The notes under the pieces: generated by a model
Told to the model about the DNA's origin: nothing
Databases searched by the model: none
Seen by the model: the letters and a program-made list of their open reading frames with translations, nothing else
In this document: positions 54,446 through 59,005 of the stretch, piece after piece
Position numbering within the stretch: the stretch's first letter is position 1
Layout: each line of letters opens with the position of its first letter
Program-made: the position numbers and the translations under genes
Assembly (NCBI RefSeq): GCF_030499515.1
Contig: NZ_JASTWJ010000001.1
Coordinates: 5,622,001-5,686,000, forward strand
DNA: 64,000 bases
Source: Streptomyces sp. DT2A-34
Lineage (GTDB): Bacteria; Actinomycetota; Actinomycetes; Streptomycetales; Streptomycetaceae
Direction: 5' to 3'

Positions 54446-55225
54446 TCAGCGGTGGGCACTCCACGTGCGGGCGGCGTTCAGCATGTCGAGCACCCAGGGC
54501 TCCGTCTGGCCGTTCGCGATCCTTTCCCAGACACTGACGGTGGCGCGGGCGAAGGCGTCGAGACTCTCCGCCGGAGCGGTGTTCCATGCGGGGATGTGGG
54601 CGGCCCACTGCTCGGCCTGGGCCGGTGTGTGCCCGTAGTTGATGAGCCACACGACCCACAGAGCGGGGTCGATCCATGCTGCTCCTCGGGAGGCCCATGC
54701 CCAGTCGACGATCACGGCGCGGTTGGTGATCAGAATGTTGGTGGGGAACCAGTCCGTGTGACAGAGAGTGTCGCCGGCGAACAGCTCCGGGGCGTCGGTG
54801 TGTGCCTTCATCCGGTCGGGCATGGTGCGCGTGATGCCGTTCGGCGCCTGGACCGTGGAGAGGCGACCGATTACGTCGGCCACCAGCGGGAGGTCGCAAG
54901 AGCCGGGCGCGTAGTCGGCGTGGCTGCCGGGGATTGCCTCAAACGCGAGGAGGTCCCAGCCGCCTGCCTGGATGTGCCACAGCAAGGCCGGGGCGATGCC
55001 TCGCACGTGAGGGTTGACGGCCGCCTCGCGCGCCTGTGTCCACACCCGTCGGTTCTCCTCGCGCAAGCCCTTGACGAAGATCGTCGAGTCTGTGGTGTGG
55101 ATGAGGGCGGCGATCTCGCTGTTGAGGCCCGCATTCAGGTTCTCCGTCTTGATCACAGAACCGGACTTGGCTTCCACTAGGGCCAGGACGTCGGCGGGAA
55201 GCTCGGGCAGGCGCACGGTCGGCAT
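54446..55225 (-). CDS. APH-fold phosphotransferase in putative RiPP operon
   Basis: This 259-residue protein has the aminoglycoside-phosphotransferase/choline-kinase fold. Lys52 in FVKGL is the ATP lysine, HTDWFPTN at 156-163 is the catalytic loop (Asp158, Asn163), and Asp174 in VIVDWAW is the metal-binding Asp. The N-terminal substrate side is normal length. It lies 70 nt downstream of the peptide gene on the same strand, which suggests its substrate is the peptide or its product. Class V lanthipeptide dehydration also uses an APH-fold kinase with a partner protein. Resistance to an aminoglycoside is possible but less likely here. The ATG at 55225 has GGAAGGG eight nucleotides upstream. Confidence 0.9.
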   Translation of the reverse strand: MPTVRLPELPADVLALVEAKSGSVIKTENLNAGLNSEIAALIHTTDSTIFVKGLREENRRVWTQAREAAVNPHVRGIAPALLWHIQAGGWDLLAFEAIPGSHADYAPGSCDLPLVADVIGRLSTVQAPNGITRTMPDRMKAHTDAPELFAGDTLCHTDWFPTNILITNRAVIVDWAWASRGAAWIDPALWVVWLINYGHTPAQAEQWAAHIPAWNTAPAESLDAFARATVSVWERIANGQTEPWVLDMLNAARTWSAHR

Positions 55226-55295
55226 GGTGGCCACCCTTCCACATAGGGCGGGGGCTCCGGCGCGCGATGCGCCGGAGCCCCGGATCGGGTGGGGA

Positions 55296-55433
55296 TCAGT
55301 TGTAAGGGTTGTCGTCGCCGCATCCTGGGAGGGTCCCGGCGGCGGCGGTGTAGGTCTCCACGTCGTCGATGAGGACGATCTCGTCGGTTTCCTCGGTCCG
55401 GGTGGGGCCGAGTTCGAGCAGGAGCGTGTTCAT
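55296..55433 (-). CDS. 45-residue peptide, candidate RiPP precursor
   Basis: The product begins MNTLLLELGPTRTEETDEIV and ends GTLPGCGDDNPYN. It has an acidic N-terminal two-thirds (leader-like), then Ala-Ala-Ala-Gly and a short Gly/Pro/Asp/Asn-rich C-terminus with one cysteine (residue 38) and Tyr at 28 and 44. The ATG overlaps the radical SAM stop codon by four nucleotides (ATGA) and has GGAG six nucleotides upstream, inside the radical SAM gene. Size, position, charge pattern and the SPASM-type enzyme directly upstream fit a peptide substrate. The real core and modification are unknown. Confidence 0.8.
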   Translation of the reverse strand: MNTLLLELGPTRTEETDEIVLIDDVETYTAAAGTLPGCGDDNPYN

Positions 55434-56686
55434 GCTGTCTCCTTCATTCCGTGCTGGCAGTAGTGGTGCAGTGGTGCCTTCGCTTCCTGGAAGACCTTCG
55501 CCATCGGCCTGCACACCCGACATGAATCGGAGAGCTTGCAGCCGTTGCATCCTCCGGTGCGAAGCATCAGGGACTCGGCGATGCTGCCCAGCCGGGCGAG
55601 TCCGTCCGTACCTTCCGCGATCAGGTCGATGTTCGGTTCGCGGCTGACCTTGCAGATCGACCCGCGGCCGAACGGGTCGGCGTGGAAGAACGTGACGCCA
55701 GCGGGGCAGCCGGTGAACGGCGCCCTGCTGGTGAGGTGTTCGGGCGACTGCGACGGCAGCGGTTCGGCGGTGCCGTGGATAGTCGGGGAGAGGTTCGCGT
55801 ACTCGCGGAACGGCAGCCCGAGCCGTTTCGCCCAGACGCGCATCGCGTCGATCTCGTGCGCGTTCTGCCGCGTGATGATCAGGCTCAGATCGAGATTCAG
55901 ACCGGCGCCGATGGCCTTGTCCAGCCCGGCGGAGAACCGCTCGAAGGCGCCTCGGTTGCGGGTCACGGTGTCGTACGTGTCGGCCGTCGCGCCGTACACG
56001 CTCAGCGACATCTTCGAAGGCGGCAGCTCGACAAGCAGCTCCAGGACGTGATCTTTGTGCAGCCGCGATCCGTTCGACAGCACCTCGACCTGCATGCCCA
56101 GCTCATGTGCGTACCGGTATGCCGCTGGAAAGTCCGGGTCGATCAGTGGTTCGCCGCCGGTCATCTGAAGCCAGATGACCCCCGCTTCGGTCATGACCTC
56201 CAGCAGCCGTCGTTTCCCAGCCATGTCCAGGCCCTCGAACCGTTTCTCACCGAGGTAGCACATCACGCAGTCGTAGTCACAGCCGAGGTTCAGTTCCCAG
56301 GTGGCCCGGCTGATCTTGTAGGGCCCGGTGGCGCGAATCAGGACGGTTCCTGCGGCGGGGCGCCCGGCGAGGTCGATTTTCCAGGAACGCCTGACCGCGT
56401 CCGCGAGCCACACAGGGACTGGTTCGCCGCCGGAGACGGCCGCCTTGAGCTGCACGAACTTCAAGCGGGGGATTTTGAGGGCCTTTGGGCTTCCCGGACG
56501 TAGCACCAGGTGATCGTCTTGGAACGGACTCGCGATCAAGTCATGCATGCTCGCGTCACTACCTCTCCGTGTCGTCGGTGGCGCGGATGGTGTTGTGATC
56601 CCGGCCGGGGCGGGTGGAGTAATGAGGCAGCCCCGGCCGGTGGCCCTGGCTTCTTCGAGGGCCTTGTCGATCCAGTCGAGGATCAC
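55430..56686 (-). CDS. Radical SAM/SPASM peptide maturase
   Basis: This 418-residue enzyme binds a [4Fe-4S] cluster at CDYDCVMC (Cys136, 140, 143). GGEPLID and NGS(R) motifs follow near residues 175 and 205. The C-terminal ~90 residues carry a seven-cysteine SPASM pattern: C-x12-G-x4-C (GCPAG ... GSICK) and later C-x2-C-x5-C-x2-C (CNGCKLSDSCRVC), then a last Cys near the end. The penultimate spacing is x2 where x3 is usual. SPASM proteins modify ribosomal peptides. The GTG at 56686 overlaps the upstream stop (GTGA); Met47 (56548) is an alternative start. Confidence 0.93.
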   Translation of the reverse strand: MILDWIDKALEEARATGRGCLITPPAPAGITTPSAPPTTRRGSDASMHDLIASPFQDDHLVLRPGSPKALKIPRLKFVQLKAAVSGGEPVPVWLADAVRRSWKIDLAGRPAAGTVLIRATGPYKISRATWELNLGCDYDCVMCYLGEKRFEGLDMAGKRRLLEVMTEAGVIWLQMTGGEPLIDPDFPAAYRYAHELGMQVEVLSNGSRLHKDHVLELLVELPPSKMSLSVYGATADTYDTVTRNRGAFERFSAGLDKAIGAGLNLDLSLIITRQNAHEIDAMRVWAKRLGLPFREYANLSPTIHGTAEPLPSQSPEHLTSRAPFTGCPAGVTFFHADPFGRGSICKVSREPNIDLIAEGTDGLARLGSIAESLMLRTGGCNGCKLSDSCRVCRPMAKVFQEAKAPLHHYCQHGMKETA

Positions 56687-57132
56687 GAGGACGCCTTCAG
56701 CTCGGCCCAGACCGCTTTCCCGCCGCCGCGCATCGCGAAGACGTCCCACGCTGTGGCAAGGGCGTCCACCATGTTCAGGCCGCGGCCGCCCTCTTCACCG
56801 TCGCCCGGCTCGCGTCGTACGACGGGACGCGATGAGGTGTCCGTGACCCACACCCGGAGCCTGTCCGGCTCCGGGTGCTCTAGCGTCAGCCTGCACCGGC
56901 CCGGCTCATCCCGAGTCGCTGCCGGTGGGCGTGCATGCCGTACGGCGTTGGTCACCAGCTCCGACACGATCAGCTCGGCATCATCGGCCAGTTCGTCGAG
57001 CGACCAGCACCTGAGTGTGGTGCGCGTCGACAGACGGGCTAAGGCAGCAGAGGAGGTCACCAGGGACAGCGTCTGCGTGTAGGTCGGCACCGTGTGCGGG
57101 GTGGGCCTGAGGTCGGGAGCGATCAGGATCAC
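56683..57132 (-). CDS. ATP-binding protein, HATPase_c fold, in RiPP operon
   Basis: This 149-residue GHKL ATPase has the N-box IVSELVTNAVRHARP near residue 52 and G-box GGRGLNMVDALATAW near residue 113. RVWVTDTSSRPVVRRE carries the intermediate Asp near residue 94. It resembles the many single-domain RsbW-like proteins of Streptomyces. The GTG at 57132 has AGGAGG seven nucleotides upstream and overlaps the previous stop by four nucleotides; its own stop overlaps the radical SAM start. It may regulate the operon, perhaps with the divergent TPR regulator. Confidence 0.9.
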   Translation of the reverse strand: MILIAPDLRPTPHTVPTYTQTLSLVTSSAALARLSTRTTLRCWSLDELADDAELIVSELVTNAVRHARPPAATRDEPGRCRLTLEHPEPDRLRVWVTDTSSRPVVRREPGDGEEGGRGLNMVDALATAWDVFAMRGGGKAVWAELKASS

Positions 57133-57356
57133 GAGGCTGCCTCCTGCACGCCGTACATGCCCGCGCACGGGGTGCACGCGTACAGGCGGACACCGGTCAG
57201 ACGGAGTATCCGGACGGGAGACCGGCGGTCCGGGGTGCCGCTGCACCAGCAGCACGAGGTCCCCTCGCGCTGTCGGCCGCTCAGTCTCTTCAAATGGCTC
57301 AAGGGGGCGTCCACGAGTTCACCGGCTGCGGATGTGGGGGTGGTTCGCGTCGTCAT
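57129..57356 (-). CDS. Small CxxC protein, first gene of RiPP operon
   Basis: This 75-residue protein carries Cys pairs CCWC near residue 35 and CTPC near residue 61, about 24 residues apart, which could form one zinc site. The rest is Thr/Arg/Gly-rich with no recognisable fold. Its stop overlaps the ATPase-fold GTG by four nucleotides, which supports it as a real gene although it is short. The ATG at 57356 has GGCGAGGC 11 nt upstream, a weak site. It could be a zinc-ribbon accessory or antitoxin-like partner; the role is unknown. Confidence 0.7.
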   Translation of the reverse strand: MTTRTTPTSAAGELVDAPLSHLKRLSGRQREGTSCCWCSGTPDRRSPVRILRLTGVRLYACTPCAGMYGVQEAAS

Positions 57357-57682: not shown

Positions 57683-59005
57683 ATGAGTACGACGGCTCGG
57701 ACGCTGCTGAAGGTTTTAGTGGATCAACGGCGTTGGCGCTATGTGGACTTCGAGCGTGCCTTCCGCCGCGCGGCAGCTCAGGCACTCGATGAAGGGTCCC
57801 GGAATCTGACGGTGTCCGAGGCGCAGTTCCGGCGCTGGACGGCCGGTCGGGTCCAGACCCTTCCAGGCGCCGAGGCGTGCACGGCGCTGGAGCACATGTT
57901 CGGGGTCGATGCGGCAGCGCTGTTTGATGCGCCTCCCTCCGTTGCACCCGCACCCGCGTTCAACCTGGAAGACGAAATTCTGATGACTGCACATGACGCC
58001 CAGAGCGAGGCCGCCGAGGCTGCCGCCGCTGCCATCTCGGATACGACCCTTGACCAACTGCGGGACGACGTGGCCACGCTGGCGCGCACGTACAGCAGCA
58101 CGTCGCCTTTCGACGTGTTCCAGCAGGCGCGGCGGCTGCGTGAGGAGGCCGAGACTCAGCGCGGCCGGACGCAAGTCCCGGCGCAATCACGAGAGTTGCT
58201 GATCGTGGCCGGCCAGGCGTGCGCGCTGCTGGCCACGGCCGCATTCGACCTGGGGTCACTGGACGGGGCGAAGCGCTTGTGCCGTTCGGCGGCTCTGTAT
58301 GGGGAGACGGCGCGGTTCGATCCGCTGCGCGGGTTCGCCGGCGGGACGCTGGCGTACATCGCGTACTTCTCGAATCAGCCTGCGGAGGCCGCGAGGCTGG
58401 CGCGGCAGGCCCAGATGTTCACGGGCCTCGGGGATGTGGCGCGGCGCAGGCTCGCGGCGATCGAGGCCCGCGCGTTCGGGTACCTCGGTGATGCCGCCTC
58501 CGCACAGCGGGCGTTGGACGCCTCGCAGCTCGACCGGCCGGGGGCGACAGACGACCTCCATGACGGGGTGGCCGGAGAGTTCGGCTTCTCCGCCGAACGC
58601 CTCGCCATGTCGAACAGTTCGACGTGCCTGCTGCTCGGTGACGGGGACCAGGCCGAGACCGCCGCGACGAGGGCACTGGAGCTTGCGGCCCAGCGACCGG
58701 CGCAGCAGCGCTCAGCCCGCGTGGTCGGTGGGGCAGGTGCGGATCTGGCCGCCGCTCGGCTGCTGCGCGGTGACCTCGACGGCGCGGCCGACGCCCTCGA
58801 ACGGGTGTGGATCGTGCCGCGCGACCAGCGCGCCACCGGACTGCTGACCCGCACCTCTCGGGTGCGGCGCGCGCTGACCGGCGAGCCGTTCCGGGGTGCC
58901 CCGCTTGCCGGAGAACTTGGCGAGCGGATCGAGGACTTCACCCGCCTGTCCGCACAGCATCAGCTCGGAACCGGCTTCGGCCCGCTGGCCGCCCTGGAGG
59001 CCTGA
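57683..59005 (+). CDS. Transcriptional regulator with TPR-type helical repeats
   Basis: This is a 440-residue protein. The N-terminal ~80 residues look like a degenerate DNA-binding domain (YVDFERAFRRAAAQALDE, SEAQFRRWTAGRVQTLPG). A linker follows, then about 280 residues of helical repeats (CALLATAAFDLGSLDGAKRL, EAARLARQAQMFTGLGDVAR, ETAATRALELAAQR), the layout of Streptomyces XRE/TPR regulators that bind peptides or partner proteins. It is divergent from the peptide operon and is the likely controller. The ATG at 57683 follows AGGGAGCGAC. Confidence 0.87.
   Translation: MSTTARTLLKVLVDQRRWRYVDFERAFRRAAAQALDEGSRNLTVSEAQFRRWTAGRVQTLPGAEACTALEHMFGVDAAALFDAPPSVAPAPAFNLEDEILMTAHDAQSEAAEAAAAAISDTTLDQLRDDVATLARTYSSTSPFDVFQQARRLREEAETQRGRTQVPAQSRELLIVAGQACALLATAAFDLGSLDGAKRLCRSAALYGETARFDPLRGFAGGTLAYIAYFSNQPAEAARLARQAQMFTGLGDVARRRLAAIEARAFGYLGDAASAQRALDASQLDRPGATDDLHDGVAGEFGFSAERLAMSNSSTCLLLGDGDQAETAATRALELAAQRPAQQRSARVVGGAGADLAAARLLRGDLDGAADALERVWIVPRDQRATGLLTRTSRVRRALTGEPFRGAPLAGELGERIEDFTRLSAQHQLGTGFGPLAALEA

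Follow-up and report, generated by a model that had tools for sequence, protein, structure and literature searches.

A putative radical SAM peptide family of actinomycetes with a Cys/Asp tail and a kinase that may act on a tail tyrosine

Several described systems resemble parts of the locus considered here, which consists of a radical S-adenosylmethionine (rSAM) gene, a gene for a 45-residue peptide and a kinase gene. The rSAM maturases SkfB and SuiB carry an N-terminal recognition element (RRE) of ribosomally synthesized and post-translationally modified peptides (RiPPs), and the tail of the mycofactocin peptide MftA has a Cys and a C-terminal Tyr, as does the system in question. The kinases of class V lanthipeptide and lasso-peptide pathways act on Ser or Thr, and aminoglycoside phosphotransferases (APH) and acetyltransferases (AAC) mask aminoglycosides. 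The SPASM rSAM enzyme PapB, which acts on Cys-Xn-Asp/Glu to give ranthipeptides (freyrasin), makes thioethers on a C-x3-[DE] motif, tolerates Cys-Xn-Asp with n from 0 to 6 and has a substrate with six repeated motifs, according to the abstract of PMC9413430, which mentions no kinase or GNAT acetyltransferase partner; a Cys-Asn link is reported for a streptococcal ranthipeptide in PMC11002830. The locus lies in a stretch of 64,000 nucleotides of Streptomyces sp. DT2A-34 (contig NZ_JASTWJ010000001.1, positions 5,622,001 to 5,686,000), hereafter the window. We propose, on sequence evidence and with a probability of roughly 55%, that it represents an undescribed actinomycete family of rSAM RiPPs, in which the rSAM enzyme would modify a Cys/Asp tail of the peptide and the kinase would phosphorylate the tail Tyr. 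The features of the core, by window position, are:

55430..56548, minus strand: SPASM rSAM enzyme, 372 aa, whose N-terminal domain (residues 1 to ~70) may be RRE-like; from PF04055, the cysteines, the structural model and the starts of relatives
55296..55433, minus strand: putative precursor peptide, 45 aa, tail GCGDDNPYN; from a readable peptide in 173 of 178 loci and the conserved tail
55251..55281, minus strand: 13-bp perfect hairpin between the peptide and kinase genes; from the sequence and the folding of 173 loci
54446..55225, minus strand: APH-fold kinase, 259 aa, with K52, E67, H156, D158, N163 and D174; from the model, Foldseek and residue conservation

The order on the minus strand is thus rSAM gene, peptide gene, hairpin, kinase gene. 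The peptide frame starts within the rSAM stop codon, giving a 4-nt overlap (55430/55433), and a gap of 70 nt (55226-55295) precedes the kinase start at 55225; both had been read correctly in the first-pass annotation of this DNA. The same annotation had the rSAM gene begin at 56686, overlapping an upstream ATPase gene (56683/56686). This start is probably too early: since the database version of the protein has 372 aa and most of the 120 relatives listed are of like length, the ATG at 56548 is preferred, which leaves about 134 nt between the two genes. A GGAGAGG stands 13 nt upstream of this ATG, a long spacing for a ribosome-binding site. Scans for sigma-70 promoters and T-run terminators returned no match.

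The comparison across genomes (loci are labelled L###, genomes G###) rests on 178 loci: the window, L006, L012, L031-L096, L136-L215 and L220-L251 minus L221, L222 and L237. Outside this set stand shorter or repeat fetches (L001-L005, L007-L011, L013-L030, L097-L135, L216-L219, L221, L222, L237), the later loci L252-L277, and one place in G897 that is not among the loci. A first comparison set held 69 loci, window included. The loci are not independent, because several genomes contribute more than one, the rSAM proteins include two identical pairs, and closely related species are represented.

A readable peptide directly follows the rSAM gene in 173 of the 178 loci, the pairing of conserved precursor gene and modifying enzyme by which a RiPP is recognised. 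The first-pass annotation had proposed a check of this kind, and had said in advance that rSAM genes lacking the peptide would speak against its reading. The five loci without a readable peptide lie at contig ends (L140, L206, L250) or are degraded (L209, L215), and a small open reading frame (ORF) with a like tail already followed every rSAM gene among the 36 loci looked at first, a few of which repeat a single place. Across 163 distinct peptides the leader varies and the tail is by far the most conserved part, with a pattern of approximately C-(x1 or x3)-[DEN]-D-[NQ]-P-[YHFN]. A C-terminus not conserved beyond chance was the other refuting condition of the first-pass annotation, and the reading of rSAM gene plus precursor as a RiPP withstands both. 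Counting back from the Pro, position -3 is D in 152, N in 7 and E in 4, position -2 is D in 153, and position -1 is N or Q in 161 of the 163. Cys and Pro are present in all 163, an invariance that is partly built in, as the pattern by which peptides were picked asked for both; any residue was allowed after the Pro. Two types can be told apart by the spacing: type A, to which the window peptide belongs, has C-x1-[DNE] (63 of 63 loci) and type B has C-x3-[DE] (110 of 110). A scan of five peptides against NCBIfam gave no family.

The rSAM enzyme carries the signature of a SPASM peptide maturase. The CxxxCxxC cluster (C90, C94 and C97 of the 372-aa protein) and the seven further cysteines (C281, C299, C334, C337, C343, C346, C364) noted at first sight are all there, and all ten are invariant in 40 aligned relatives, drawn from 120 among the matches listed. 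The match to PF04055 scores 57.5 bits against a cut-off of 29.5. A structural model of the enzyme (mean predicted local distance difference test score, pLDDT, 79.4) is confident in residues 1-70 and most of the radical SAM barrel; residues 4-56 form three strands followed by two helices, with pLDDT of 90-97 across residues 1-70. SkfB and SuiB are among the top structural matches in a whole-model comparison, aligned from residues 1-3 on, but share only 14-19 percent sequence identity with the window enzyme; their precursor tails differ from the D-N-P-Y-type tail found here, and we know of no kinase partner for either. A RiPP reading of the rSAM gene with its precursor is, taken together, very likely. 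What stands of the RiPP operon first proposed is an rSAM enzyme with a conserved-tail precursor, joined in the window's branch by the kinase; an ATPase-fold protein and a small CxxC protein, then counted among its parts, do not belong to it (see below).

For the modification itself, the leading though tentative candidate, on which we would place less than even odds, is a cross-link between the conserved Cys and an Asp, Glu or Asn. This is suggested by analogy, because the C-x3-[DE] of type B peptides is the motif of PapB, because PapB is tolerant in spacing and because a Cys-Asn link is reported from streptococci. The PapB tolerance of n from 0 to 6 would cover the C-x1-D of the window peptide, which does not have the PapB-kind motif; the linkage here is a prediction. 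The system also differs from PapB in having one tail in place of six repeated motifs and in being accompanied by a kinase or GNAT gene. Alternatively, the rSAM enzyme may make another change, in the manner of mycofactocin-like cofactor pathways, for instance a decarboxylation, a carbon-carbon bond at the tail residue or an epimerisation; the kinase would then phosphorylate a small molecule, with a redox or signal role, that is excised from the tail. The highest-scoring NCBIfam model for the enzyme is indeed the mycofactocin rSAM (the MftC equivalog), the best sequence match in the PDB is the decarboxylase BlsE, and no exporter recurs with the unit. The mycofactocin score, however, is 73.7 bits against a cut-off of 265, and the tail keeps its Cys and an Asp-rich stretch, with the reservation that the picking pattern required the Cys; we consider this alternative quite unlikely. 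Membership in the mycofactocin system was rejected on the same score, and to our knowledge neither a D-N-P-Y tail nor a kinase partner is part of that system. Other identities were discarded too: the best scores against the known NCBIfam peptide-rSAM systems are far below their cut-offs, and prokaryotic viperin reaches 40.6 bits against a cut-off of 180 (PADLOC pVip 51.1 bits, over residues 84-232 only).

Actinomycete genomes repeatedly show the rSAM gene, the 45-residue peptide and the kinase together as a unit. With a threshold of E 1e-40, the rSAM enzyme occurs in about one in five Streptomyces genomes (57 of 295) and in 78 of 394 genomes of a family-level draw, and at E 1e-30 in 17 of 394 genomes of a class-level draw. 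Around two members found in other families it occurs in 6 of 35 and 16 of 200 genomes of the respective families and, for the order to which the second belongs, in 25 of 268 genomes; the draws (Streptomyces, family, class, second other family and its order) overlap. A plasmid collection holds eight records with the rSAM gene, one of them, at 11.9 Mb, hardly a plasmid. A protein search returned at least 892 relatives of the rSAM enzyme at E 1e-20 or better, among 7998 candidates, and the 120 relatives among the matches listed carry either no name or a general one such as 'radical SAM protein'. The window's own genome has a second, degraded copy of the system (L146, G000:C1:4663500-4675900), in which an rSAM fragment with a frame of 211 residues, a GNAT gene and a peptide with the ending CSCAAGDDNPN are left.

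A hint to the role of the kinase comes from the residue after the tail Pro. It is Tyr in all 121 loci with the kinase, and His, Phe or Asn in 49 of 52 readable loci without it; where the rSAM frame has at least 340 residues, the counts are Tyr in 110 of 110 kinase loci and a residue other than Tyr in 43 of 44 kinase-free ones. Downstream of the peptide gene the kinase and a GNAT gene (the representative matches PF00583 above cut-off) largely replace each other. The 48 readable loci with GNAT alone have His (33), Phe (11) or Asn (4), and two more GNAT loci are unreadable. Among loci with neither gene, L089 has Phe, L096, L213 and L232 have Tyr, and three more are unreadable. The rSAM frames of L096 and L213 are broken (150 and 192 residues). 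The genome of L089 (G218) gave no kinase-family match at E 1e-5. GNAT and kinase occur together in four loci from three genomes, all four with Tyr, so that it is the kinase, and not a missing GNAT gene, that the Tyr accompanies. A strict mutual exclusion of kinase and GNAT, suggested by the first 69 loci, is abandoned on account of these four, as is a strict kinase-Tyr rule, which fails once in an intact locus (L232). As a kinase in the operon is found only where the tail has Tyr, the kinase probably phosphorylates that Tyr, and we put slightly better than even odds on this assignment.

Some details of these loci may be added. The genomes of L096 and L213 have no kinase of this family, and transposase-like ORFs stand beside L096. 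In L137 both downstream genes are in pieces, and its genome, G510, has a further GNAT-plus-kinase copy (L145, with a short rSAM frame) near the opposite chromosome end.

The same co-variation could be a by-product of shared descent, with the kinase acting on some other substrate. A single large clade does contain most of the kinase-free loci, there are no more than five changes of either trait, and L232 is an exception to the link. In a quick maximum-likelihood tree built from 155 rSAM proteins (23 of the 178 loci, with frames below 340 residues, were left out), four of the five changes in kinase and in tail Tyr nevertheless fall on the same branches, and the fifth differs by one nested step, at L232. 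When Tyr changes were placed at random by branch length, 200,000 draws gave at most three coincidences and never four. Kinase loss and Phe also go together beside relatives having Tyr and kinase: L089 (neither gene, Phe) groups with L079 and L090 (kinase, Tyr), and L224 (GNAT alone, Phe) lies in one clade with L136, L137 and L220 (GNAT and kinase, Tyr). We therefore regard descent alone as a very improbable account. If the kinase does act on the tail Tyr, these changes on shared branches would amount to a natural experiment in which sequence alone points to the atom on which an APH-fold enzyme probably acts.

The APH-type fold of the kinase, named in the first-pass annotation, is borne out by a model of pLDDT 94.7, for which Foldseek returned the choline kinase LicA and many aminoglycoside phosphotransferases; against Pfam APH (PF01636) the protein scores 22.2 bits, just under the curated cut-off of 23.2. 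Across 44 aligned rows D158 is the only catalytic residue that varies, with the active-site K, E, H, N and D of aminoglycoside phosphotransferases and LicA kept in 44 of 44; unlike the former, the enzyme is encoded beside a peptide gene. If the present reading is right, some actinomycete kinases annotated as aminoglycoside phosphotransferases would be peptide-tailoring enzymes. Such an enzyme would resemble the class V lanthipeptide and lasso-peptide kinases in being an ATP-dependent kinase of a ribosomal peptide, but would differ in that the co-varying residue is Tyr and in that no lyase-like gene cluster occurs in more than 9 of the 69 loci (neighbouring genes were grouped by cluster, and were not all scanned individually for lyase families). 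The earlier suggestion of Ser/Thr phosphorylation as in class V dehydration is accordingly not supported for type A, the type of the window: 52 of 59 distinct type-A kinase-linked peptides have no Ser or Thr after the last Cys, and no lyase-like cluster recurs. Type B differs in this respect, with Ser or Thr after the last Cys in 42 of 56 distinct kinase-linked peptides.

Kinase relatives also occur away from an intact rSAM gene, so that a kinase confined to the rSAM-peptide system was ruled out. Twenty such regions were inspected, 17 from 16 genomes without a hit to this rSAM enzyme and 3 from genomes in which its gene lies elsewhere; neighbour genes, here and in the cluster counts, were called by a simple codon-position rule in place of a gene finder. 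Two of the regions (L262, L266) are degraded copies of the same system with the Tyr peptide kept. In several of the regions no obvious peptide pathway was seen nearby, as judged by eye. The kinase relatives outside the system suggest a portable tailoring enzyme. By eye as well, the kinase relative stands beside an ATP-grasp-like protein and a methyltransferase in L261, adjoins a methyltransferase in L263 and L265, and in L275 and L276 stands beside a different rSAM protein whose own C-terminus is Cys/Pro-rich. L259 and the stretch downstream of L089 encode two similar proteins whose C-termini are rich in Cys (CSQCHANCSDS... and CSQCHSGCSDSNYAGK); one precedes a tandem pair of kinases of this family, the other adjoins the kinase-free Phe locus.

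A further alternative is self-protection, in which the kinase (elsewhere the GNAT enzyme) would mask a toxic rSAM product, in its finished form, by phosphorylation of its Tyr or by acetylation. It would suit the APH-type fold, the replacement of kinase by GNAT downstream of the peptide gene and the existence of related kinases without rSAM. The four loci with both genes, the locus with neither (L089) and the lack of any exporter cluster in more than 9 of the 69 loci speak against it, and on balance we hold it to be unlikely.

Returning to a kinase that tailors the tail, the following route may be envisaged. The putative RRE-like N-terminal domain of the rSAM enzyme would bind the hydrophobic, acidic leader, and the enzyme would then modify the C-terminal core by radical chemistry, most likely by joining the conserved Cys to an Asp, Glu or Asn that stands one or three residues further along (the proposed rSAM sites in the window are Cys38 and Asp40/Asp41). 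The kinase would add phosphate to the hydroxyl of the Tyr that lies in the D-[NQ]-P-Y end of the tail (Tyr44 in the window), either ahead of the removal of the leader or following it. In loci that have lost the kinase, the Tyr is replaced by Phe, His or Asn and the GNAT acetyltransferase is usually present. Beyond the rSAM, kinase and GNAT genes and two regulators, no gene cluster was found in more than 9 of the 69 loci, so that by this test the unit includes neither a transporter nor a protease or lyase; general proteases could thus remove the leader, and the product may be intracellular, for instance a cofactor or signal. Gene order, conservation, kinase-Tyr co-variation, model folds and the hairpin are observations, and from them we infer each chemical step and the order of steps.

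Several points weigh against the proposed reading. All of its chemistry is inferred, and the SPASM part of the rSAM model is of low confidence. The window peptide has C-x1-D and not C-x3-[DE], and carries a second Tyr, Tyr28 in the leader, besides Tyr44; the tail Tyr is the sole one in 105 of 115 distinct kinase-linked peptides, the window's being among the other ten. L232 combines an intact rSAM gene and Tyr with no kinase nearby, its genome giving only a 40-residue match of 36.8 bits. The rSAM tree has several long branches, and an independent-pairs test on well-supported branches gave three concordant pairs, none discordant and one without difference, too few for significance. The catalytic D158 is Glu in 7 of 44 kinase rows, and the kinase family is found (E 1e-25) in 101 of the 295 Streptomyces genomes against 57 for the rSAM enzyme; kinases outside the system weaken the claim that the enzyme evolved for one tail.

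With regard to novelty, no NCBIfam model is above cut-off for the rSAM enzyme, five peptides, the kinase or the GNAT representative, and no description of an rSAM-peptide-kinase family was found in open papers, most subscription journals being outside the scope of that search. The closest survey seen, PMC9062424, reports 22 unexplored rSAM pathways, and the family may be among them. On the sequence evidence this appears to be an rSAM RiPP whose tail is new and whose partner kinase was not found described in open papers; if so, a widespread RiPP family beyond the existing NCBIfam models would be added. More speculatively, and with distinctly less than even confidence, it could be a new RiPP class, its kinase being a peptide tyrosine kinase that acts on an rSAM-modified D-N-P-Y tail to give a phosphotyrosine product and belongs to a family that also tailors peptides of other actinomycete pathways in a portable way, with the GNAT gene usually remaining after loss of kinase and Tyr.

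The hairpin is a feature of most loci. In the 90 nt after the peptide stop of 173 loci the median folding z is -3.0, with 135 loci below -2; control stretches 500 nt further on have a median of 0.13, with 4 of 173 below -2. A hairpin behind a precursor gene may serve to express the precursor more strongly than the genes that follow, and the one in this unit probably increases the yield of peptide over that of the gene downstream.

Upstream of the rSAM gene the window holds three further genes:

56683..57132, minus strand: RsbW-like ATPase gene (PF13581), a frequent upstream regulator, not core
57129..57356, minus strand: small CxxC protein, outside the conserved unit
57683..59005, plus strand: NsdA-family regulator gene (NF053720), divergent and upstream, a frequent neighbour type, not core

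The first-pass annotation had packed five genes into one operon. The unit is better described as a conserved core of three (rSAM, peptide, kinase) with variable upstream regulators, because ATPase genes of one cluster stand upstream, on the same strand, in only 26 of the 69 loci and the CxxC gene has a relative in just one other (L037, tblastn E 1e-3); both proteins were dropped from the definition of the class for the same reason. The ATPase protein matches PF13581 and, weakly, RsbW models; its cluster was not seen downstream, and one tblastn match lies downstream in L075. The NsdA-family regulator scores 96.9 bits (cut-off 75). Divergent XRE/TPR regulators from another cluster are found upstream in 28 of the 69 loci, and none downstream. 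The ATPase and NsdA-family genes each contain one TTA codon, which Streptomyces seldom uses and which is linked to the bldA tRNA; the rSAM, peptide and kinase genes have none.

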